A stretch of 64,000 nt of DNA from an uncultured Oligoflexia bacterium (GTDB lineage Bacteria; Bdellovibrionota; Bacteriovoracia; Bacteriovoracales; Bacteriovoracaceae). The stretch covers positions 124,001 to 188,000 of the forward strand of contig CAJXPQ010000008.1 of NCBI GenBank assembly GCA_913058265.1, in the 5' to 3' direction. The notes beneath the pieces were generated by a model. It saw only the letters and a program-made list of their open reading frames with translations. It was not told the origin of the DNA and did no database searches. Shown in pieces: positions 29,376 through 42,354 of this stretch. The position numbers were made by a program, and so were the translations under genes. The number at the start of each line of letters is the position of its first letter. The first letter of the stretch is position 1.

Positions 29376-30599
29376 ATGAATGTAATTATTTTAGGTGTTG
29401 TGATGTTTACAGGAGTCATTCTACTTTTAGTGACTTTGATTCTTGTAGCTCGTAGAAAATTAGTTCCTCAAGGGGATATTAAAATTAATATAAACGGAGA
29501 GAAGAATATTGTCGTTTCTCCAGGAGATAAACTCTTAGGTGCTTTGGCAGCTGAGAAATTATTCTTGTCTTCTGCCTGTGGTGGCGGTGGAACTTGTGGC
29601 CAGTGTTTGGCACAAATTACTGAAGGTGGAGGAGATATTCTTCCAACTGAGTTATCACATATTTCGAAAAAAGATGCCAAAGATGGCTGGAGACTTGCGT
29701 GTCAGGTTACTTGTAAGCAAGACATGAAGGTCCATGTTCATGATGAAGTTTTTGGTGTTAAAAAGTGGATGTGTAAAGTTAGATCTAATGATTCAGTAGC
29801 AACCTTTATTAAAGAGTTGGTTCTTGATTTACCTGCTGGAGAGTCAGTACCATTTAAAGCTGGTGGATTTATTCAAATTGAGAGACCTGGTGGGTTAAAT
29901 ATCGACTTTAAAGATTTTGATATTGAAGATGAGTATCGTGGAGATTGGGATAAATTTGATCTATGGCAATTTAAATCAAATGAGCCAGAAGAAACAATTA
30001 GAGCTTACTCAATGGCAAATTACCCGGAAGAAGAAGGTATGATCATGCTTAATGTTCGTATCGCGACTCCTCCTCCAGGTATGAATCACGTACCTCCAGG
30101 AAAGATGTCATCATATATCTATGGCCTTAAAACTGGTGATGATTGTATGATTTCAGGACCATTTGGTGAATTTTTTGCAAGAGATACTGAGAAAGAAATG
30201 GTCTTTGTTGGTGGTGGTGCAGGAATGGCGCCGATGAGATCGCATATCTTTGATCAGTTCAAAAGATTAAACTCAAAAAGAAAGACAACTTTTTGGTACG
30301 GGGCAAGATCAAAAAGAGAAATGTTCTATGTTGAAGATTTCGATATGATTCAAAGAGAGAATGAAAACTTTAAATGGCATTGTGCTCTTTCTGATGCTCT
30401 TCCTGAAGACAACTGGGAAGGTCAAACTGGATTTATTCATAATGTTTTATATGAGCAATACTTGAAAGATCACCCAGCGCCAGAGGATTGTGAGTATTAC
30501 TTATGTGGACCTCCTATTATGAATCAATGTGTAATTGATATGCTTCTAGACTTAGGTGTCGAGGCAGATGATATTATGCTTGATGACTTTGGTGGTTAA
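29376..30599 (+). CDS. nqrF: Na+-NADH:quinone reductase subunit F
   Basis: A 407-residue entry subunit: an N-terminal membrane anchor, a plant-type ferredoxin domain with [2Fe-2S] cysteines ([15 protein letters not shown], and later LACQVTC), then FAD- and NADH-binding domains ([31 protein letters not shown]). Electrons enter here from NADH. A sigma-independent terminator follows directly. Confidence 0.97.
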
Positions 30600-30625
30600 T
30601 AGTCAAAAGATAATTTGTGTAATAT

Positions 30626-30651
30626 AAAGGGACTTTAGGGTCCCTTTTTTT
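30626..30651 (+). terminator. Terminator after nqrF, overlapping the apbE upstream region
   Basis: AAAGGGAC (30626-30633) pairs with GTCCCTTT (30640-30647), followed by six Ts. The T run ends directly before ATG 30652, so transcripts reaching apbE either read through or start here. This could keep ApbE levels below the NQR subunits. Confidence 0.65.
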
Positions 30652-30663
30652 ATGGAGAAAGAT

Positions 30664-31668
30664 TTGAATAAATTAATCTTTATCATTTTAACATTACTTT
30701 TAATTTCATGTAACTCTGAGACAAAGCTCGTTATTGTTGAAGGCGAGACTATGGGAACTTATTATCGAGTTACCACGTACTCAGCAGGTGATAAAGCTGG
30801 CTTAAAGGTGGATATCGATAAGTTCCTTATGCTTTTTAATAATATTTTTTCCACATATATTCCGACTTCAGAAATTTCAGAAATAAATAACAATAAATAT
30901 GCCGAAGTCGGTGTTACAGATACGATGAAAAAGCTATTGGAGCTATCACAAGATATTTCAAGAAAATCAAAAGGCTACTTTGATATAACAGTCGCTCCAA
31001 TAGTTAATGCTTGGGGCTTTGGTCCCGCTGGCAAGGTGCTTAAGCGACCAAGTGAAGAGGTCTTAACCGAACTGAAAAAAAATATTGGTTATTATAAACT
31101 GAAATTTAAAGAAAAAATTCTTTATAGAGAATCCAAAGCTGTGCAGCTCGACATGTCTGGGATCGCAAAGGGGTTTGGAGTAGATGAATTAGTTAAGTTT
31201 TTAGAATATCAAGGTTATGGAGACTTATTAGTTGATATCGGGGGAGAGGTTAGATCTCGCGGTAAGAAGACTGATGGAAGTCTGTGGAGAATTGGTATCG
31301 AAGGTCCCACTGAAACCTTAGGGAGTTCGATTTCGAAGGTCGTAGAGTTAGATAATATGGCACTTGCCACCTCTGGGAACTATAGGAATTATGTGAAATT
31401 TGGTGATACGGTTTTTGGACATACCATCGACCCCTTAACAGGAAAGCCGGCTAAACATAGAACAGTATCAGTTTCAGTTCTGTCAGAGTTCTGCGCAGAT
31501 GCTGATGCCTGGGCAACCGCTTTAATGGCAATGGGTTCAGACAAGGGACTTGATCTGGCCAATAAATATAATTTATTGGTTTATTTTCAAGTCCAAAAGA
31601 ATGCTAAGTTAGAGGTATTGACGAGTAGGGCATTTGATAAGTATATAAATAAGAAGAAAGGACTATAA
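30664..31668 (+). CDS. apbE: FAD:protein FMN transferase
   Basis: ApbE attaches FMN to threonine residues of NqrB and NqrC. It is a lipoprotein (NKLIFIILTLLLISC lipobox). The start is uncertain: TTG 30664 has GGAGAAAG upstream and gives the tidy signal, while ATG 30652 sits right after the T run with no binding site. Family motifs are DMSGIAKGFGVD, LVDIGGEV, GNYRNY and HTIDPLTGKP. It follows nqrF, a typical position. Confidence 0.93.
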   Translation: MNKLIFIILTLLLISCNSETKLVIVEGETMGTYYRVTTYSAGDKAGLKVDIDKFLMLFNNIFSTYIPTSEISEINNNKYAEVGVTDTMKKLLELSQDISRKSKGYFDITVAPIVNAWGFGPAGKVLKRPSEEVLTELKKNIGYYKLKFKEKILYRESKAVQLDMSGIAKGFGVDELVKFLEYQGYGDLLVDIGGEVRSRGKKTDGSLWRIGIEGPTETLGSSISKVVELDNMALATSGNYRNYVKFGDTVFGHTIDPLTGKPAKHRTVSVSVLSEFCADADAWATALMAMGSDKGLDLANKYNLLVYFQVQKNAKLEVLTSRAFDKYINKKKGL

Positions 31669-31669
31669 T

Positions 31670-31885
31670 ATGGATACTTTACTTATTACTTGTGGCGTTT
31701 TTCTTATCGCATTTGCTGGTATGTCCGTTGGCGTGATCGTTGCTGACAAAACTATTAAGGGCTCTTGCGGCGGAATCAGTGCTTTATTTGGAAAATCGGC
31801 GTGCGACTTGTGTGCTTTGAAAGATAAGTGTGACTCTTCAGGCAGAGAAATCTGTGAAGAGGGCGAGGAAGAAACAAACTGTTAG
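31670..31885 (+). CDS. nqrM: Na+-NQR maturation protein
   Basis: A 71-residue protein with one N-terminal membrane helix and the cysteine pattern IKGSCGG...CDLCALKDKC, the signature of NqrM, which is needed to build the iron site of NqrD/NqrE. It directly follows apbE. The final three codons overlap the convergent barrel gene: the two stop codons share bases 31883-31884. Confidence 0.92.
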   Translation: MDTLLITCGVFLIAFAGMSVGVIVADKTIKGSCGGISALFGKSACDLCALKDKCDSSGREICEEGEEETNC

Positions 31886-32838
31886 TACAGTGAAATTCTA
31901 AAGTCTAATCCAATGGCAGATTTCTTTAATGATGCTTCTTCAATACCAACCTGTAAAAAGGTACCTGCGTACATTCCATAATCAATATTAAAGTCCAGCG
32001 CTATTTCTGCAACATCATCCATGTTTTTATTAAAGACTTCAGTATCATTTATTTCATCACCTTTCTGATCCCAGTCAAATATCAGTGACGATTTCAAGGT
32101 AGTGTAGTCATTTAATGAGTAGTTTGCATATGGACTTACAGATACCAGTAGAGTTTGGTATCTGTTTGGAACATTACATGGAACGCCTCCACAATCAGGA
32201 AACTCCACATTATTCTTAAAATAATTACGTTGGATAGAGGCTTGTAAACCTGTACTTAGTGCAGGGTTAGTATGGCGAAAACTAATTGTAGGCTCTATTC
32301 CAAGTCCATAAAGCCTTTCTTCATTAAGAGAAGAATTTGTAGAAGCAAATTCGTAGAAGTAATTGGAACTGATAGAGAAATTTTTATGAGTATAAATATT
32401 TGATACAAATAAATTAATTCTTTTATTGTTGTCTGAGATATCTCTTTCTCTCTTACTTGTGAACTTTGAGCCATCCCATTTGTTTTGATAAAACTCTATG
32501 TCTTTATTTATGTCCTCTTGAAAGGTGTATGTGTAGGACAAGGTGTAATCCTTAGCGATACCGTACCCCAGCTTTAAAGAGTGATAATATTGATTGGATG
32601 CCGTAGAGTCTTGATCGAGTCCAAAGATATCTTGGCCTGTTTTAAATCTATTATAAGTAGCACCATCTTGATAATCATTAGATAGAGAAGGGCCCAAGTA
32701 TCTTACGCCATAGTTAAAACTAAGTTTCTCTGTATAGTTTCTAAAGAGAGGTTTCTCTTGCTTCTTTGTCAGTGTATTTGTCACTGCAAATGAAGAAGTT
32801 GAAACAAGAACTGTAAGCAGCAGAGTAAGTTTTTTCAT
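31882..32838 (-). CDS. Putative outer-membrane beta-barrel protein (operon gene 3)
   Basis: A 318-residue protein with a signal peptide (MKKLTLLLTVLVSTSSFA). The mature part is made of alternating polar/aromatic strands (YEFAST, FDWDQKGDEI, LDFNIDY) and ends in FRISLY, an aromatic C-terminal residue as used for BAM recognition. This points to an outer-membrane barrel of perhaps 12-14 strands. Its start overlaps the stop of the 690-residue gene by one base, so the two are translationally coupled. No specific family is recognised. Confidence 0.7.
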   Translation of the reverse strand: MKKLTLLLTVLVSTSSFAVTNTLTKKQEKPLFRNYTEKLSFNYGVRYLGPSLSNDYQDGATYNRFKTGQDIFGLDQDSTASNQYYHSLKLGYGIAKDYTLSYTYTFQEDINKDIEFYQNKWDGSKFTSKRERDISDNNKRINLFVSNIYTHKNFSISSNYFYEFASTNSSLNEERLYGLGIEPTISFRHTNPALSTGLQASIQRNYFKNNVEFPDCGGVPCNVPNRYQTLLVSVSPYANYSLNDYTTLKSSLIFDWDQKGDEINDTEVFNKNMDDVAEIALDFNIDYGMYAGTFLQVGIEEASLKKSAIGLDFRISLY

Positions 32839-34910
32839 TATATTGTGCTGCCTTTTTGTTGCTCTGCTTGTGCGTAAACACCAGAGTTGAATAGTTTATC
32901 TCTTTCAATTAAATATTGCTTAATGTTGTTTATAACATTTTCACGAAGCTTAGCTTCATTATCGTACTTAAGATCATTAACAAGCTCTTTCTTAATGGAA
33001 ACGTATTCCATGGTAAGATTATGAAACATATTTTCCATATACTGATTCATAGAAGATTTTGCTGTTGTACTTTCTGCCCCAACATTGTCTAGGTTGTATC
33101 TATAAGTCATAGCGCCAATCTCACTTCTTTTTGCCGAGTAGATTGTTTGCATTAACCAGATGGCATTTCTTACTGACCATGTATAGGCCTGGAGAGCAAA
33201 TGATGAAGCTTCCTGCTTTTTATTTTGTTGCATGAAGAGAACTTCCCACTGTCTTTTCATATACTTTCTATGCTCATCAGAGCTTAAGAAATCTTTTTGT
33301 CTAAACAGTTTTGAATTTTTCTTCAGCGTATCTAGCACACTAGATCCCTCAATACGCATTTTTGCAAACTTCTTACCAAGAAGCTCTACGTTCTGATGTG
33401 TTTTTGGAGAGTTTGCTATACCGATTTGGCTTAGCTTCTCTGCCATTCTTTTAAAGAAAACAAATTGTCTACCAACGTAATAATTTCTTTCAGTTTGCTC
33501 ACCCTCTTCATCTACAACGATATATGGGTGATCAATAAAAAATTGTCCAACTTTCTGCCAAATATAGAATTGAAGTTCTAGAGTTCGTTCTTTTTCATTA
33601 TTTAAAAAGGCTAAAAACCTTGCATCAAGATTATTGTTAAACTTTATTTTTCCTTCAATATCTTCTAGGTATAGCTCCATCTCCATCCAAGCAGCCTCAG
33701 CAGTAAGAGGAAAGTTAAACTGAGTTTCAAATTGCTCAATACGTCCCATTCTTTCAGAGAAAACCATATCTTCCTCATAAGATATTTGCATAGCTTTGAA
33801 GTTACTCATACGCTCATCCCAAGACACTCGTTTGCCTAGTGGCATGGGTGCATTTGCGCTTGATTGCTTTGTTGAGACTTTATCAACCATATTTATGGAC
33901 TCTTCATTCTTCGCCATTTCAGACTGTGGTAACTCTTTACCTTCCATCACTTTTGTAATCGCGATATATGAATTTCTAACCTTTCCAACCGCCCACATGG
34001 CATGTGGATTCATAGGTTGAGTTATAAAGTAAAAAGTAAAGGGGCCGTATATCGCTAGGGCGACAGAGTATCCAAGGTTACTTTTAACGGTATTAGCAAA
34101 CCAAAAGAGGTTTCCAAGAGTATATTTATACATGGATCCAAAAAAATTATTCACAGGTCTTGCTTTAAATAACTGAAACTTTACTTTTAAGTTTAGAACC
34201 ATAACCACAAAGTCATATAGCATAAATTGGAAAGCATGAGCTCTCCTTTTAGTTGCTAGAACTTGATTTCGTAACTGTTTAAGTTGATCAAATATTATTT
34301 GACGCTCAGTCCATTTTAAAACAGCGTCTCGCTCGACTTTAAAAATTTCGATATTGATGTTCTTAAGAGCAGAATCTTTAATCCCATCATTTGCTGAGAG
34401 GTGAATTTTTTGTTCATTATAGAATACTTTTAGTAATTCTTCATAGAACTTAATTCTTCCTGTGTTTCCGTAATTAACAGTTGCACCTTGATACTCTACA
34501 TGCAGGATATTGTAGATATGATTAATGAATGGACTCGTTGGGTCCATAGCAATGGAAGTATAGTATAGACATTGACCATCAAGTGAACTCGATTTGTAGA
34601 AGAAGTTACCTTCTTGGTCATAATAGTCATATTCTTCATTTAAGTAATTGTTGATAAATGTTTTCTTATAGACAACATATGTACCACTTACAAGTGTTCC
34701 TAGATAAAGCTGTGCGATGAGCTCATCCTTTACCCAGTAGTTATAACCACTCATACCGTTGTAACCGTGAACATCATCAATTCTAATGGAATCAGGCAGT
34801 TTTGTATGACTACCATCATCCTTTAAAATACAGGCCAGTCGTTCTTCCAGAGTCTTGGTCTGTGACATCACTAAATCGGTAAGTTGAGTATATGCGTTTG
34901 CACTTCCCAT
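32838..34910 (-). CDS. 690-residue protein of unknown function (operon gene 2)
   Basis: The start at 34910 follows GAGGATAACAA. The product has no N-terminal signal. It is rich in aromatic residues and lysine; one or two hydrophobic helices lie near residues 240 and 285 (GYSVALAIYGPFTFYFITQ). The second half is helical and highly charged, with repeated Trp/Tyr/Phe. No family recognised. It lies 16 bases downstream of the ATP-grasp gene and 1 base overlaps the barrel gene, so the three genes form an operon and probably work together. Confidence 0.7.
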   Translation of the reverse strand: MGSANAYTQLTDLVMSQTKTLEERLACILKDDGSHTKLPDSIRIDDVHGYNGMSGYNYWVKDELIAQLYLGTLVSGTYVVYKKTFINNYLNEEYDYYDQEGNFFYKSSSLDGQCLYYTSIAMDPTSPFINHIYNILHVEYQGATVNYGNTGRIKFYEELLKVFYNEQKIHLSANDGIKDSALKNINIEIFKVERDAVLKWTERQIIFDQLKQLRNQVLATKRRAHAFQFMLYDFVVMVLNLKVKFQLFKARPVNNFFGSMYKYTLGNLFWFANTVKSNLGYSVALAIYGPFTFYFITQPMNPHAMWAVGKVRNSYIAITKVMEGKELPQSEMAKNEESINMVDKVSTKQSSANAPMPLGKRVSWDERMSNFKAMQISYEEDMVFSERMGRIEQFETQFNFPLTAEAAWMEMELYLEDIEGKIKFNNNLDARFLAFLNNEKERTLELQFYIWQKVGQFFIDHPYIVVDEEGEQTERNYYVGRQFVFFKRMAEKLSQIGIANSPKTHQNVELLGKKFAKMRIEGSSVLDTLKKNSKLFRQKDFLSSDEHRKYMKRQWEVLFMQQNKKQEASSFALQAYTWSVRNAIWLMQTIYSAKRSEIGAMTYRYNLDNVGAESTTAKSSMNQYMENMFHNLTMEYVSIKKELVNDLKYDNEAKLRENVINNIKQYLIERDKLFNSGVYAQAEQQKGSTI

Positions 34911-34926
34911 TTGTTATCCTCTTTTA

Positions 34927-37900
34927 CTATTGCTGAGTTTGGTTATAGCTACTTCCTACTGTCACCGGAGTGATAATTGGAACTAGTTTTAGGTTCTCTT
35001 CTTCACTATCAGCTCTATCAAAACTTACACCGTGATATTGGTGAGAAGCAATAATTCTTAATGCTTCCCAGTTTGCTATAGGCATTCTGGCAGCTTCTAG
35101 AATTTCATCTGCATAGTAGTTAATTTGGTTTTCATTTGCTGCTGGCATTGCCGCTGCTATGGCATCAATATTTATATTTAAGCCAAGCTCTTGAGCAAAT
35201 AATATGTTCTTTGTATTCTCAAGTGCAGGTAGTACTTCTTGTAACGCCTTAACCTTTGTCCCTGAACTCTTTGGCATTGTGTAGCCAAGTAGTGATCCAT
35301 ATTCATTAAGCATTGATTCCCAAGCACTATCACTAGTACGAATGGCCTTATCAAGGTCTTTCATAATATGCTTCTTAGAGTCACTTTCAATTCTATCAGC
35401 ATAACCGTAAAGAGGTTTTCTATCACTTGAGATATCAGCATCAACTTTTTCTAGTGTTCTCTGGTTAGATCCTAAAAAGTTTCCATAGTAATTTAAAAAC
35501 TTTGATATTGATAAACCACCATCTTTCAGTGCTCTTTTCTCAGCATTCATTGAGTGCTTAATTTGTTGATAGTGAATGAGCTCATGTCCTGCAGTATAGA
35601 TCATTACAAAAGGGTTGATCTGATCTCTTATCCATACATATACGTCACTGTCTGAGTAAAGTCCGTGTGATGCACGCTTCTTTGCAAAACATTCACCAGC
35701 AAATTCTCTTTTATCTAATTTATGCTTTTTCAGAGCACTCTCTTTTAGAATAGAAATTCTATTTGGAGTTAACTCTGAAGTAAAAATAGAATCTAATGTT
35801 AACCCTTGCTCTTTAGCAAAGTGCTCTATATTAAATTTTGCGTAAGGTGCAATATCTAGTAGAGATATTAGCGATTCCTTGTCTGTCTTATTTTGATCAA
35901 TAATCTCCTGGTACTTTGCTAGGATTGGAAACTTGCCAAAATGAACTTCTCTTTTCGAGCGAATAAAAGCTTCTCGTTTCTCTGGCGAAAGCGTGTTCGA
36001 AAGAGAAATTGTCTTTTTCCATTCATTTCTTGCTCTAAGTAGTTCTTTATCAATGTGTCCACTTTCAATTAAAGATTGCTTTGATCGCATCTCTAGTTGT
36101 GAAGCAACTTTTATTTCTTTATCAGTGTCTCGTTTTCCGAGATATAAAGTTTCAAATTGTAATTGAGTAACATCAGCATCAAGGTCAAAGAGTTCAGCGA
36201 ATGATGCTATCTTTGGCGAAGCATTTAGTCTTCCCTTAACTGTGGCACAAAATTCCTTAAGGTATCTCTTTATAATTTTCTTTGAGGACATTGTAATGGT
36301 AAAGTCCGGTCTTTCTTTAAGGATAACTCTCTTCAATAGTCGATCTACTCTTGTTAGAGTTGCCTTGAACCCATCGTCTTTTATGTAAGAGGATAGGGCA
36401 GACAGCTCTTCTAGCATTACAAGATCAAGTGCTCTATCTTCAGCACTATAGTTTAGTAGTACATGATCTGTGCTTATGACTCTCATATTGTCGATAATAT
36501 CTCTTATAGCTTTCATCTCTGGCTGAGTATCATGCTCTTTCAGAATTACTACCAACTTTAACTGTGAGTCACCGATGAATTCTTTGTACTCTTTGATATC
36601 TGCTTTCGAGATTTTCGTCTCTAATAGGTCAATAATTTTATAAATCGACTCGATTGATCTTGGGTGTACAAAAGATAAGATTTCTTTTAATTGTATTTTA
36701 ATTGCTTCTGCAAGGTTTAAGAACACTTGTCCCTGACATTGCTCAGTTGCTAGTAGTCTGTTTGCCTCTTTAAGCATTCTTGAAACTTGAACCATTTGAG
36801 CCGCTACAAATACTGGAAGACCTGTATCAATTCTTACAGCTTCAAGTTCTTTTACTAATTCTTTTGCTGTTACAGCTTCTTTATTTTGCGTATCATCTAT
36901 AATGACAAATGGGGCATACCCTCCACCTGCAGATGTATTTACAATCGAACTCATTCTTCCTTTTTCTTGAGGAGCATATCGAACAAGAGCATTGTGAGAC
37001 ATTCTTGGCAATTTTTGCTTTCCTGCACCAAAAAAGATCCATGTTCTAATATCGGCAGCCAAATTTGCAAATTTATACCCCTCTGCTTTTCTTTGTACAG
37101 CGACTGGTATTCTTGCAATCTTTACAAGCTGTTGGTAGGCAAAGTCTTCAGGATTCTCTCGAATCATTTCAAGAACTTCTTCTTTTACATTTTTTGGAAG
37201 TGTCTTTAAAATATAGACACCTTGGCCACCGGCGAGAGAAGGTGCTTTTACTACCCACTCATCTGGGTTTTGTTCGATGATCTCAACCGACTTTCTAGTT
37301 GGTGGTAGAGTTTGTGGAGGGCGTATTTGATTACCTTCCGTACTTAACCCTGCTTTCTCGATCTTATGTCCAAAAAACTTTGGAGCATAATACGTAAGTG
37401 TTGCTAGGATAATTTTGTTATCAACTATTCTGTTAAGGCCACCCATGTATATCTTTCTGTTGATTATGGCATCAATGATTCCTGGAATTGCGTAGTCTGA
37501 TTCCAGTGGAATTGGCTTTCCGCTTGAATCATAAACGATTTGACCTTCGTCTTCTTCGTCTTTGATAAGGTTATCTCTTAGAAATAGTTCTTCAGCTGAA
37601 TCTGGATCTTTCATAAATAGACCTTTTTCTGGGTCATAAAGAGCTGAATCAGCGTTGATTCTAGAATATACTCCTGTCACTATTGGATTCTCTGTTGATA
37701 CTGTTCGTAGTCTTATATAACCTTCATCATCTTGATAAAGTTGATCTGCATCTGTATAAATTAAACCAGAGTATGCAGCAAGTTGGTGAATTTCCGGTGC
37801 AGCACCATTTTGCCCACCTGGCGGTAATAATATTTGAATCCCATCTTTTCTTTTAGTCCAAGCTTCTCCGAGAGATTTATAAGTTTCACCTAGAATTTTG

Positions 37901-38655
37901 AAATGATCATTTGGCATCATATTACCAAGGTCATCAAGAATCTCTGGGTTATTATTATATATTCCTTGAAGGACATTTAAATTATTTGAAGCACCTGAAG
38001 GAGAACCTGCATTTAATTCTAGTATTCTAAACGGAAGCCCTGGTAACTCATCTTCATTATTTTTAGCTATGAGGTTAGGGAAGCTATTTGATTGTGTAAT
38101 ATAGTCATCAACTAATACAAGGTCTAGTCCGACGTTATCTAGAAATGGATACTTCTTCATATTAGGGTGATGTAACTGTGGAAAGTAGTTTGAAGACGAT
38201 TCAATTGCCGTAATAAAGACTTCTCTAACTGAGGTTGGAAGACTTTTAACAAACTTTGCTGAAGCAATATCTTTTGATCCATAAATATCTTGAAGTACTG
38301 CCCGTAGAGAAATAATTAGTTTTTGGGCCGCAAACTCCACATCATTAAAAAGAGACTTTTGAATTGGAACAATAGTCGTTGTACATGGAACGGTAAAAGT
38401 TTTATGTTCGCCACTAAGTGTCTTTTTAGAGAATGTTAAATCCCTTGCTTTTAAGAATTTGGTAAGTTTTTTACTTTCTTGGTAGTGGTTTGACACTTCC
38501 ATATTCAAGAGCCTATCGGTAATTGGCTTAGCGTGTTTGTAGCCTCTGCGAAGCTTAGCCTTGCTGAAAAGATAGTTAGATACCTGAACTTCAGATTTAC
38601 CAATAAATCCACGATTCGGGTTGTACAATGAATTTGTTCTAGTGTTGTCTTTCAC
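34927..38655 (-). CDS. Giant ATP-grasp protein with C-terminal HExxH region (operon gene 1)
   Basis: The start is placed at GTG 38655, which has GAGG five bases upstream (an in-frame TTG at 38736 has none). The 1242-residue product contains a circularly permuted ATP-grasp-like domain at about residues 200-600: RILELNAGSPSGASNNL, then LLPPGGQNGA, KAPSLAGGQGVYIL (phosphate-binding loop near 470) and LPRMSHNALVRYAP. Such enzymes usually form peptide-like amide bonds on a carboxylate. Residues ~700-1000 are mainly helical. Near residue 1025 lies HELIHYQQIKHS, an HExxH zinc-protease-type motif. The whole combination is not a family I recognise. First gene of the operon. Confidence 0.72.
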   Translation of the reverse strand: MKDNTRTNSLYNPNRGFIGKSEVQVSNYLFSKAKLRRGYKHAKPITDRLLNMEVSNHYQESKKLTKFLKARDLTFSKKTLSGEHKTFTVPCTTTIVPIQKSLFNDVEFAAQKLIISLRAVLQDIYGSKDIASAKFVKSLPTSVREVFITAIESSSNYFPQLHHPNMKKYPFLDNVGLDLVLVDDYITQSNSFPNLIAKNNEDELPGLPFRILELNAGSPSGASNNLNVLQGIYNNNPEILDDLGNMMPNDHFKILGETYKSLGEAWTKRKDGIQILLPPGGQNGAAPEIHQLAAYSGLIYTDADQLYQDDEGYIRLRTVSTENPIVTGVYSRINADSALYDPEKGLFMKDPDSAEELFLRDNLIKDEEDEGQIVYDSSGKPIPLESDYAIPGIIDAIINRKIYMGGLNRIVDNKIILATLTYYAPKFFGHKIEKAGLSTEGNQIRPPQTLPPTRKSVEIIEQNPDEWVVKAPSLAGGQGVYILKTLPKNVKEEVLEMIRENPEDFAYQQLVKIARIPVAVQRKAEGYKFANLAADIRTWIFFGAGKQKLPRMSHNALVRYAPQEKGRMSSIVNTSAGGGYAPFVIIDDTQNKEAVTAKELVKELEAVRIDTGLPVFVAAQMVQVSRMLKEANRLLATEQCQGQVFLNLAEAIKIQLKEILSFVHPRSIESIYKIIDLLETKISKADIKEYKEFIGDSQLKLVVILKEHDTQPEMKAIRDIIDNMRVISTDHVLLNYSAEDRALDLVMLEELSALSSYIKDDGFKATLTRVDRLLKRVILKERPDFTITMSSKKIIKRYLKEFCATVKGRLNASPKIASFAELFDLDADVTQLQFETLYLGKRDTDKEIKVASQLEMRSKQSLIESGHIDKELLRARNEWKKTISLSNTLSPEKREAFIRSKREVHFGKFPILAKYQEIIDQNKTDKESLISLLDIAPYAKFNIEHFAKEQGLTLDSIFTSELTPNRISILKESALKKHKLDKREFAGECFAKKRASHGLYSDSDVYVWIRDQINPFVMIYTAGHELIHYQQIKHSMNAEKRALKDGGLSISKFLNYYGNFLGSNQRTLEKVDADISSDRKPLYGYADRIESDSKKHIMKDLDKAIRTSDSAWESMLNEYGSLLGYTMPKSSGTKVKALQEVLPALENTKNILFAQELGLNINIDAIAAAMPAANENQINYYADEILEAARMPIANWEALRIIASHQYHGVSFDRADSEEENLKLVPIITPVTVGSSYNQTQQ

Positions 38656-38954
38656 ATATACCTCTGTTTTTAGCGATTTCAGTAGGTTACGGTCCGTGTA
38701 AAATACTTGATTGTTATATACAGTTAATATACACAATTATTTGATTCGGTGCAATAACTTTTTACACATTGCAATATTCTTGTTGATTTTTTCTACATTC
38801 TTGAGATATAAAAGTTGATTTTATTAAAAAGCGACCAATATATGGACAGTTTCAATCATTTATCGAAAATATTACTCCTGTGAATTATTTTTAGTCAGTC
38901 ATGATGTGGCAAGAATATATTTGTTCTTCGGATTTATTAGTATAAAGTGTCCTC

Positions 38955-39653
38955 ATGAATAATTCCGAAGCCATTGTGCTTGAAGATATTAAGCCGCAAA
39001 TATGTATCATTGAAGATGAAGCTGATATCGCTAATCTCCTTAAGGATCACCTTGTTCCTCAAGGTTACGATGTTAAAATATACCTTAGTGCTGAAGAATT
39101 TTTTGCAAATATTGAACCAAACTTTAAGGGACTGTATCTTATAGACTGGAACCTTCCTGGTGAATTAGGAATATCTATCGTTAGTAAAATCAGACAAAAA
39201 GATCATTTCTCTCCAATTTTTATGGTGTCTGGTTATGCACGTAATGAAGATATAGTTACAGGTTTAAATGCTGGAGCTGATGATTATATTACGAAGCCAT
39301 TCTCATTGGATGAGCTATCTGTAAAGATCAAAAATGCTAGTCGAAAATTCAAGAGACTTCTATCTGAAGTTAACACTGATGAAATAAAATTACTCTCTGA
39401 AGCAAATTCATATATCAAGGACAATACGACAGTAAGTTTAACTAAGAGAGAATTTCTCATTTTTGAATGTCTTTATAAGCATGTCTTAGAACCTGTTAAT
39501 AGAGAGAGTCTTTTAAAGTGCTTTGCTCAGGAGGAAGACATGACTATTCGAAATATTGATGTTCATATTTTTTCTTTGAGAAAGAAAATAAAAGCTACGA
39601 ATCTACTTATCGAAACACTATGGGGAAAAGGCTATAAATTAGTCGTTTGCTAA
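38955..39653 (+). CDS. OmpR/PhoB-type response regulator
   Basis: A 232-residue two-component regulator: receiver with acidic pair E20-D21, phosphorylation site D64 (LIDWNLPG), T/S at SGYARN and K114 (TKPFSLDE), then a winged-helix DNA-binding domain (SLTKREFLIFECLYKHV...NIDVHIFSLRKKI...WGKGYKLVV). No histidine kinase is in the window, so it is an orphan. It is divergent from the ATP-grasp operon across 38656-38954 (300 bases without a gene), so it may control that operon. Its stop overlaps the convergent barrel gene by 4 bases. Confidence 0.9.
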   Translation: MNNSEAIVLEDIKPQICIIEDEADIANLLKDHLVPQGYDVKIYLSAEEFFANIEPNFKGLYLIDWNLPGELGISIVSKIRQKDHFSPIFMVSGYARNEDIVTGLNAGADDYITKPFSLDELSVKIKNASRKFKRLLSEVNTDEIKLLSEANSYIKDNTTVSLTKREFLIFECLYKHVLEPVNRESLLKCFAQEEDMTIRNIDVHIFSLRKKIKATNLLIETLWGKGYKLVVC

Positions 39654-40873
39654 AAGTAAAATCTAAACTCAATTTCGGCTAAATCTGTCTTTGGAACATT
39701 TTTACCATCCATCATTTTTTGTAATGATAAATTTATTTGAGCCGGAAGGACAAACTTTTTTTTCTGGAATAATTTTAATGATGAAAACTGCGCTAACATT
39801 TTAATATTTTGAGAGTAGGACTCTGTGTCCTTAGCTAGTCTTCTATTCGCTTGTGCATCTGATGAGCTATACTCGGCCTCAGATATGAAGTCAAATACTA
39901 GGCCTGATTGAAGCTTAAACCAATCATTAATATAGTAATCAACGTTAGTACCAAATAAGATTTTGTTACCTAGTTTTTCCTCAAAACTTGCATTTTCGGC
40001 ACCTAAGTTTGTGTCACTCGCTAGTGGAACACGAAGTTTTTTTGTGGATGCAAATTGATATGTATATCTTGTCCATGCATTGATGGTGATATCGTCTCTT
40101 AATTCGTACCCACCTCCAAATTCAGCAAAGACATCCCATTGTCCGTCTCCAAAGCCTATATCCTGTAGAAGATCAGGGTCATCAACATATCCCGTAGGTG
40201 CGACAAGACCAAATGTTGCCATCATCCCATATTTTTTTTCACGAAGAAAATTGTACATAATTCCAAGTTCAGTATCTCCGAGGCCTTCACCCTGCCAATC
40301 ACCAAGCTCGTCGTATTCTAGTGCATTAACAATTCCGCTTTGAATAAGAGACTCATCAACTTCATAAAGATTTTCTACAATATTACCAATAGTCTGCGCT
40401 AGGTCATCGCCATTAGTATCTTGTAAAATATCTGATACTTCATCAAGAGAATCATTCTTTATTCTAGTATAATTAATATTTACATTTGCTTTGTAAATAG
40501 GAACGCCAACATACGCGGTTATTCTATCCGTGATTCCGTAGGCCAAGGCGTATACATCAACATTTACATCAGCTTTTGCATCAAATTTATGTGTTCCAAG
40601 TGATATAGCGCTGTAGGCATCAGGATAGGAATTAAAAACATCAAGGATGTCGTTAAGAGTTGGGTCGTTAATATCTTCTAGCATTTTAATGTCAGCATTA
40701 ACTTCAAAAGTAAAAGGAGAGAGAGTCTTACTTTGATTATAGCTGGAATTGATATCAGATTTAATATATCTGGAGACGAAGGAATTTACACCTTTTGGAA
40801 GGGTGTCATAGTAGTGAGCATAACTGTCCACAGATATATAACTTAAAATAAGTAAAACTAATAACTTATGCAA
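39650..40873 (-). CDS. Outer-membrane beta-barrel protein
   Basis: The start is set at TTG 40873, with GGAGG four bases upstream and a signal peptide immediately after (HKLLVLLILSYISVDSYA). A longer frame to 41041 would overlap the divergent gene and its promoter. The 407-residue product has strand-like repeats (DVYALAYGITDRITAYVGVP; YMFGLVAPTG-like; LRDDITINAW) and ends in EIEFRFYF, an aromatic C-terminus. It resembles transporter-type barrels of the FadL/MetA-pathway kind in pattern only. Function unknown. Confidence 0.7.
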   Translation of the reverse strand: MHKLLVLLILSYISVDSYAHYYDTLPKGVNSFVSRYIKSDINSSYNQSKTLSPFTFEVNADIKMLEDINDPTLNDILDVFNSYPDAYSAISLGTHKFDAKADVNVDVYALAYGITDRITAYVGVPIYKANVNINYTRIKNDSLDEVSDILQDTNGDDLAQTIGNIVENLYEVDESLIQSGIVNALEYDELGDWQGEGLGDTELGIMYNFLREKKYGMMATFGLVAPTGYVDDPDLLQDIGFGDGQWDVFAEFGGGYELRDDITINAWTRYTYQFASTKKLRVPLASDTNLGAENASFEEKLGNKILFGTNVDYYINDWFKLQSGLVFDFISEAEYSSSDAQANRRLAKDTESYSQNIKMLAQFSSLKLFQKKKFVLPAQINLSLQKMMDGKNVPKTDLAEIEFRFYF

Positions 40874-41031
40874 TGTTCCTCCAAGAAACCATGTCGCTAA
40901 GCATAAATCATATATTAGTTTAATCATCCATACATAAAAATCATCTAAACTATGTAAAAATGACACGACGCAATAAAAACCGTGAAGTAAATCTGAATAT
41001 AAACTAAGATTAGGACCAATTGGAGGTTTTT

Positions 41032-42354
41032 TTGCGTACATTACTATTATTTGTATTTATATTCTCGCTTTCTAGTTGTTCTCTTAAAGAGGCAGTCGAT
41101 AATGATTTTAAAACAAAAACTGAAGTGAAACCTTTCGCATCCTCTAAATCAACTGCTGATATATATGGTGACGGTAAGACATCTAAAGTCTCAATAAAAA
41201 TTCCCTTAACAGAAGATTCCGTTGGTTATTATGATGTAGATGATGTCCTCGGAAATGGAACAATTAGTGTGAAGGAAAAAAACTATATAGAACGCTTCAA
41301 GGATACAATTAAACTTAACCTTTATAAGCTAGGGGTAGGTCTTGGTTTTTCAAATAAAGTTAAATTTACATCAAGTTTTAATTTCGATTATATCAATCCT
41401 AAATTTATTAAATCAGCTAAGGTTATAAAAGTATTCTTTACGACAGATGATTGTCGGCCTGAAGATAAAACTTGTGATTCAAATGGAAGAGAAGCAAATA
41501 ACTTCAGCATTGTAGATAAATTCTTTGTAAATATTAAGCCTTCTCGAATTACTGAGACGGCGGATCCTTTTCAAAATCTTGATAATAAAACTTTTAAGGA
41601 AGCAGAGAAGTCATCATTTTCAGAAAGTAATCTCTCTGACAATAAGGCCAAGGTAAGTCGTTTCACAGGAGACGAGGACTCTGATATCCAGGATGACTTT
41701 GAAATCAACCTTGTTAAGTTTAATAATAATGTGCCTTATCTTAACCTAAATACTTTAAATGTTTCAGATGATGAAGACTACTTATTTTTAAAGATCAAGA
41801 AAAATAAGACGGAGATCTATCGATATCTTCGTAGTCTTAAATTTAGAAAATATATTAGAAAGATATCTAATACGAATGAAGGAATAGAAATAGAATTAAA
41901 GAGAAGAGCAAAGCCTTCCGATTTATTTAATGCTGTCGGTGCAGATCAGAATCCAACATTAAAACGAATGTTCATATATAGATTAAATACTGGAATGATC
42001 GAAGCTAAATCTTTATTCGAGTCTGAAAAATTTAGCGGCATAGTTAAAGAGACGAATCTTATAGGACGGTCTTTATTTGTAGAAGTTAAAGATGATGAGT
42101 CATTAGATGAATTTGTATTAAAAACGAGTGGAGATAAATCACTTATTAAAGACTTTGATCTCTTTCGTGTTGAGCGATGTGTTTATAATAATTGTATTGA
42201 TATAAAGGCAAGAGATCTGAATCTTGTTCCTATAATTGAAAAGAGCCCAAGGGTAGATATTGATACTTACTTATCTATAGATGCACTTCAGTCGAGAGAC
42301 TTTAAGTATAATGGTTATATTGAGGTTGAGTTAGAGATAAGCTTGCCGCTATAA
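41032..42354 (+). CDS. Lipoprotein of unknown function
   Basis: The start is TTG 41032, with GGAGG six bases upstream. The signal RTLLLFVFIFSLSSC ends in a lipobox, so the 441-residue product is lipid-anchored. The mature part is rich in Lys, Asp and Asn and mainly beta; no domain is recognised. It is divergent from the barrel gene at 39650 and both use TTG with strong binding sites, so they may be co-regulated and form an envelope pair. Confidence 0.7.
   Translation: MRTLLLFVFIFSLSSCSLKEAVDNDFKTKTEVKPFASSKSTADIYGDGKTSKVSIKIPLTEDSVGYYDVDDVLGNGTISVKEKNYIERFKDTIKLNLYKLGVGLGFSNKVKFTSSFNFDYINPKFIKSAKVIKVFFTTDDCRPEDKTCDSNGREANNFSIVDKFFVNIKPSRITETADPFQNLDNKTFKEAEKSSFSESNLSDNKAKVSRFTGDEDSDIQDDFEINLVKFNNNVPYLNLNTLNVSDDEDYLFLKIKKNKTEIYRYLRSLKFRKYIRKISNTNEGIEIELKRRAKPSDLFNAVGADQNPTLKRMFIYRLNTGMIEAKSLFESEKFSGIVKETNLIGRSLFVEVKDDESLDEFVLKTSGDKSLIKDFDLFRVERCVYNNCIDIKARDLNLVPIIEKSPRVDIDTYLSIDALQSRDFKYNGYIEVELEISLPL

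Follow-up and report, generated by a model that had tools for sequence, protein, structure and literature searches.

A three-gene Bdellovibrionota module combining a circularly permuted ATP-grasp/HExxH protein, an obligate partner and a probable outer-membrane β-barrel

Results

Organisation of the locus

Three neighbouring genes lie on the minus strand at 31882-38655 of the stretch of DNA analysed here (64,000 nt, referred to throughout as the window); they encode proteins of 1242, 690 and 318 residues and are numbered 1, 2 and 3 in that order. Genes 1 and 2 are separated by 16 bases, genes 2 and 3 overlap by one base (a gap of -1), and one weak terminator-like sequence was matched on the minus strand, within gene 2 rather than between genes. 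An Rfam search of the three-gene region returned no family matches. The linkage of the genes is kept at identities down to about 28%, which argues that the set is more than a chance arrangement.

The open reading frame of gene 1 spans 34927-38736 (1269 aa) when read from a TTG, and 1242 aa when read from the ATG at 38655. Since alignments with homologues start at residue 11 of the ATG-initiated protein and an AGAGG precedes this ATG, 38655 is the likely start. The resulting protein (34927..38655) has no signal peptide and comprises a circularly permuted (CP) ATP-grasp ligase, an all-helical region, an HExxH metallopeptidase-like domain and a glutamine tail.

The ATP-grasp core and the C-terminal half of gene 1

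The CP ATP-grasp core occupies about residues 90-590 (36886..38388, minus strand) and matches CP_ATPgrasp_2 (PF14403; E 2e-16, 60.2 bits versus a curated cut-off of 32) and CP_ATPgrasp_1 (PF04174; E 2e-6, 27.8 versus 23.1 bits). Alignment of the gene 1 profile with the solved CP ATP-grasp structure 3n6x in the PDB spans both halves of the site. Moreover, the Mg/ATP residues D178, E213 and N215 (the ExN motif, 213-215), K470, the GGxG loop (476-479), R537, R559 and the NxSxGGG motif (573-579) are identical in 41/41 homologues drawn from three GTDB families. Judged on its sequence, the gene 1 product is a true CP ATP-grasp protein, and the retention of the Mg/ATP residues makes the enzyme look active.

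The AlphaFold model of the C-terminal 653 residues is confident (pLDDT 88.5, pTM 0.88), and consists mainly of helices, followed by a short beta section and then by the helix that carries the HExxH motif. A Foldseek comparison of this half with the PDB gave no match at E <= 0.001. The motif itself lies at residues 1024-1028 (35572..35586, minus strand); none of H1024, E1025 and H1028, or of the candidate third ligands E1039, E1140 and E1146, varies among the 41 homologues. In 19 of 26 gene 1 members there is a weak match to DUF6782, a putative metallopeptidase family; it remains below the cut-off (18.5 versus 27 bits). The domain is possibly metallopeptidase-like, the motif alone being no proof of peptidase activity. 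An Alpha-E domain (PF04168) in the helical middle of the protein was considered and rejected, with no match in the homologues or in this genome. A phage origin was likewise discarded, as no relative of the C-terminal half was found in phage records, nor of gene 1 in viral contigs, and a defence system was rejected, with no match in PADLOC-DB. One genome of family f8 (G353, L103:5678-6433) encodes a 251-aa stand-alone relative of the C-terminal region that contains neither HExxH nor ATP-grasp, and is perhaps a remnant.

The protein ends in the tail YNQTQQ (34930..34947, minus strand). QQ is terminal in 41/41 homologues, most of whose tails read YNQTQQ; many carry an additional Q, so that the number of Q varies. 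The majority residue has a frequency of 0.96 over the last six aligned residues, versus 0.59 over the preceding 25. We propose that this tail is a functional element serving as primer, acceptor or docking peptide. An exact codon-pattern search of this genome for other proteins ending in QTQQ found none; a second QTQQ-tailed protein was dismissed, the only other exact match falling outside any real gene.

Genes 2 and 3

Gene 2 (32838..34910, minus strand; 690 aa) encodes a large, helical protein for which the family search gave no match. Foldseek against the PDB also gave none at E <= 0.001, a result that says little as the query model is poor (pLDDT 61). This model is partial: a domain of moderate confidence covers residues 1-250, and residues 252-396 are poorly placed. 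The latter contain a stretch of strong conservation around residues 278-305, within which residues 279-297 are moderately hydrophobic. The top 19-residue hydropathy of 1.3 is borderline, and there is no clear transmembrane helix.

Gene 3 (31882..32838, minus strand; 318 aa) encodes a protein with a signal peptide, as do most of its homologues, and a beta-amphipathic periodicity of z = 4.0. Its C-terminal residue is Phe in most homologues and Tyr in the window copy. No Pfam barrel family matched over its cut-off, and the protein is a probable outer-membrane β-barrel.

These results agree with an earlier sequence-only reading of the locus, which had described three minus-strand genes with gaps of 16 and -1 and no intergenic terminator, a CP ATP-grasp core and a far C-terminal HExxH in gene 1, a gene 2 of no recognisable family and a gene 3 resembling an outer-membrane barrel. 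The absence of ATP-binding residues, which that reading had named as speaking against it, is not observed.

Distribution of the module

Gene 2 is carried by 58 of the 369 genomes of the phylum, belonging to 12 genera and three families. The gene 1 family is present in 58/58 of these, at full length where the contig permits, and occurs in none without gene 2. The order 1-2-3 is found in families f1 and f8; the f12 loci have gene 1 in divergent orientation to genes 2-3. Gene 3 nearly always directly follows gene 2; it was not detected beside the module in genome G101 (L119) or at L024. The expectation from the sequence alone that the unit would be conserved across Bdellovibrionota is borne out by the perfect co-occurrence of genes 1 and 2, and the search for co-occurrence that it had suggested, run here, shows the three-gene module recurring in dozens of genomes.

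The gene 1 and gene 2 trees agree (r = 0.91). In G101, which belongs to family f1, both genes group with family f8, suggesting that the pair has likely moved together as a module transfer.

Neighbouring genes and exported glutamine-acting enzymes

Comparison of neighbourhoods shows that the recurring extra neighbours of the module are exported Gln-acting enzymes and regulators. An OmpR-type response regulator gene (38955..39653, plus strand) is divergent from the module and is a conserved neighbour in the window's subclade, while a response regulator and a histidine kinase lie upstream of the module in much of the freshwater clade. The regulator of the window is a possible regulator of the module.

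In f12, most loci have a glutaminase gene (PF18626) between gene 1 and gene 2; in f1-g5 and in one f8 genome such a gene adjoins gene 1. Genes of the TGase_elicitor family (PF16683) are found one to four genes from the module in f1-g25 (downstream), f1-g26, f12 and two f8 genomes, and four to five genes away in f1-g5. In the window's subclade the Gln-acting genes are located elsewhere in the genome and none adjoins the module. Three places for glutaminase and four for TGase_elicitor are found in this way in the present genome; signal peptides are apparent in most of them, and one of these non-adjacent proteins is 37% identical to the module-adjacent form of another lineage.

Glutaminase is found in 57/58 genomes with the module versus 165/311 without it. 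The number of PF18626 copies has a median of 5 versus 1 in f1 (with versus without the module), and is 4, 3 and 3 versus mostly 0-1 in f8, in a comparison that ignores kinship and is thus confounded by relatedness, with counts hand-read from a table and the size of f8 estimated. PF18626 and PF16683 are frequent in genomes lacking the module as well. Throughout Bdellovibrionota exported PF18626 and PF16683 genes are widespread and often multi-copy, with up to 12 glutaminase matches per genome; the two families are absent from 14 well-known control genomes. Neither the conserved tail nor the linked exported Gln-acting genes figured in the sequence-only reading; the linkage and the raised glutaminase copy number are new in this analysis.

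Other genes surround the module. Two genes without confident family (463 aa, with a weak DUF2490 match, and 444 aa) occupy 39650-42354 of the window and are conserved module neighbours in its subclade. In part of the freshwater clade a gene for a 650-aa L,D-transpeptidase (YkuD_2; L025:16039-17991) directly follows gene 3 on the opposite strand. On the plus strand of the window, 29376-31668 encodes an oxidoreductase subunit, likely NqrF, in which Fer2, FAD and NAD domains are combined, together with an adjoining ApbE; this pair has the appearance of the last part of a Na+-NQR operon.

Discussion

Two features, the conserved glutamine tail and the linkage of the module to exported glutaminase and TGase_elicitor genes, favour glutamine/isopeptide chemistry located in the envelope over a diffusible product. 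We tentatively suggest, rating it somewhat short of even, that the module makes and trims an amide-linked, peptide-like modification of the cell envelope. In the cytoplasm, the CP ATP-grasp domain of gene 1 would use an ATP-activated carboxylate to form an amide bond, for which a peptide or protein tail is the probable site, and the fused HExxH domain would hydrolyse or edit the ligation product. Gene 2 would be a dedicated partner coupling gene 1 to the envelope, a role that is weakened by the lack of a clear transmembrane helix, and gene 3 would form the outer-membrane end of the pathway. The exported glutaminases and transglutaminase-fold enzymes would then deamidate or cross-link Gln residues. 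We infer this order, from ligation through editing and envelope transfer to outside modification of Gln. The envelope reading is based on gene content, co-occurrence, conservation of the catalytic motifs and of the tail, and linkage to exported Gln-acting families; against it stand the location of these genes away from the module in the window's subclade, and the DUF6782 match below cut-off.

The union in one operon of an ATP-grasp, a peptidase-like domain and an outer-membrane barrel would also fit the interpretation first given to this locus, in which gene 1 synthesises and then matures a soluble product, either a peptide or a small molecule, that passes the outer membrane through gene 3. 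However, neither a transporter nor a further tailoring enzyme recurs among the neighbouring genes compared (those encoding at least 70 aa), and the neighbours that do recur are the Gln-acting enzymes and regulators; we consider a soluble product unlikely. The tail itself could suggest that gene 1 extends or edits its own Gln residues as a switch, by analogy with RimK acting on S6, with genes 2 and 3 as client or anchor. Such self-modification has a precedent in RimK/RimB (PMC12239564), and is consistent with a ligase and a peptidase-like domain on one chain and with a tail that is always terminal, variable in its number of Q and conserved far above the preceding sequence. The tail could just as well serve for docking, though, and RimK is a different, non-permuted ATP-grasp; this explanation too appears improbable.

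Genes 1 and 2 could instead act as a scaffold or assembly factor for the barrel, their catalytic residues being kept for folding or regulation. The near-constant position of gene 3 directly after gene 2 and the large, helical nature of gene 2 are in its favour, but the 41 homologues show no variation at all at the ATP, Mg and HExxH positions, which implies catalysis and makes a scaffold role very unlikely.

A more specific form of the envelope reading would be a conjugation system, in which the ligase-peptidase, primed by its own Gln tail, produces an amide-linked tag, the tag is passed via the partner and the barrel to the outer surface, and exported glutaminases and transglutaminases fix it there. 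In all these particulars the scheme is a long shot. If true, the system perhaps belongs to the predatory surface of these bacteria.

Operons combining ATP-grasp, transglutaminase and peptidase have long been proposed as bacterial peptide-tagging systems without known substrate. The module represents this theme in a compact and strongly conserved form: its partner protein is of unknown type, ligase and peptidase are fused, the conserved Gln tail could be the substrate or a site of docking, and a component of the outer membrane is included. These features make its location and function testable.

The Anbu operon, as summarised in PMC5666114 and PMC6376114 after Iyer et al. 2009, contains an ATP-grasp, Alpha-E, a transglutaminase and the Anbu peptidase; it has been proposed to be a peptide-synthesis or tagging system (PMC5666114). 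Its ATP-grasp releases phosphate from ATP (PMC6376114). Similarly, the module groups an ATP-grasp ligase with peptidase-like and transglutaminase-fold proteins, but its peptidase-like part is the fused HExxH domain, Alpha-E is missing from both the gene 1 homologues and this genome, and the set is extended by an obligate partner of unknown type, an outer-membrane barrel and exported enzymes. In the rlo operon, the cytoplasmic ATP-grasp RloC, the inner-membrane inactive transglutaminase RloB and the secreted peptidase RloA take part in one envelope process, and envelope phenotypes are described (PMC12239564). The module resembles it in combining an ATP-grasp of the cytoplasm with transglutaminase-fold and peptidase partners of the envelope. 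Unlike gene 1, which is of another ATP-grasp class, RloC is RimK-like; the rlo peptidase is aspartic whereas gene 1 has HExxH, and gene 2 has neither a 7-TM region nor a transglutaminase match. RimK/RimB also pairs an ATP-grasp ligase with a peptidase on a C-terminal tail, but differs from the module in its non-permuted ATP-grasp, in acting on RpsF and in having no envelope parts. As the defining features of the Anbu and rlo operons fail (Alpha-E; the 7-TM transglutaminase; the class of peptidase), the module is better seen as a variant of the ATP-grasp/peptidase/transglutaminase-fold theme than as a member of either. Among the papers searched, none connected ATP-grasp and transglutaminase with Bdellovibrio, and none connected protein glutaminase with Bdellovibrio. 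Together with the family and structure searches, this accords with the earlier statement that no described system with this gene set was known.

Other CP ATP-grasp proteins of Bdellovibrionota (L104-L107 and L126-L130; 780-1175 aa) have apparent signal peptides or, in L127, a lipobox, and the ATP-grasp motifs are kept in those inspected. In five of them (L126-L130) a C-terminal HExxH is present as well, and QQ is terminal in three of these five. These five cousins resemble gene 1 in domain order and ATP-grasp homology, but differ from it in their signal peptides or lipobox and in the absence of genes 2 and 3; homology of their C-terminal domain with that of gene 1 was considered and found unsupported by hhalign profile comparison. 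An exported ATP-dependent ligase raises the question of its ATP source, which might be the prey.
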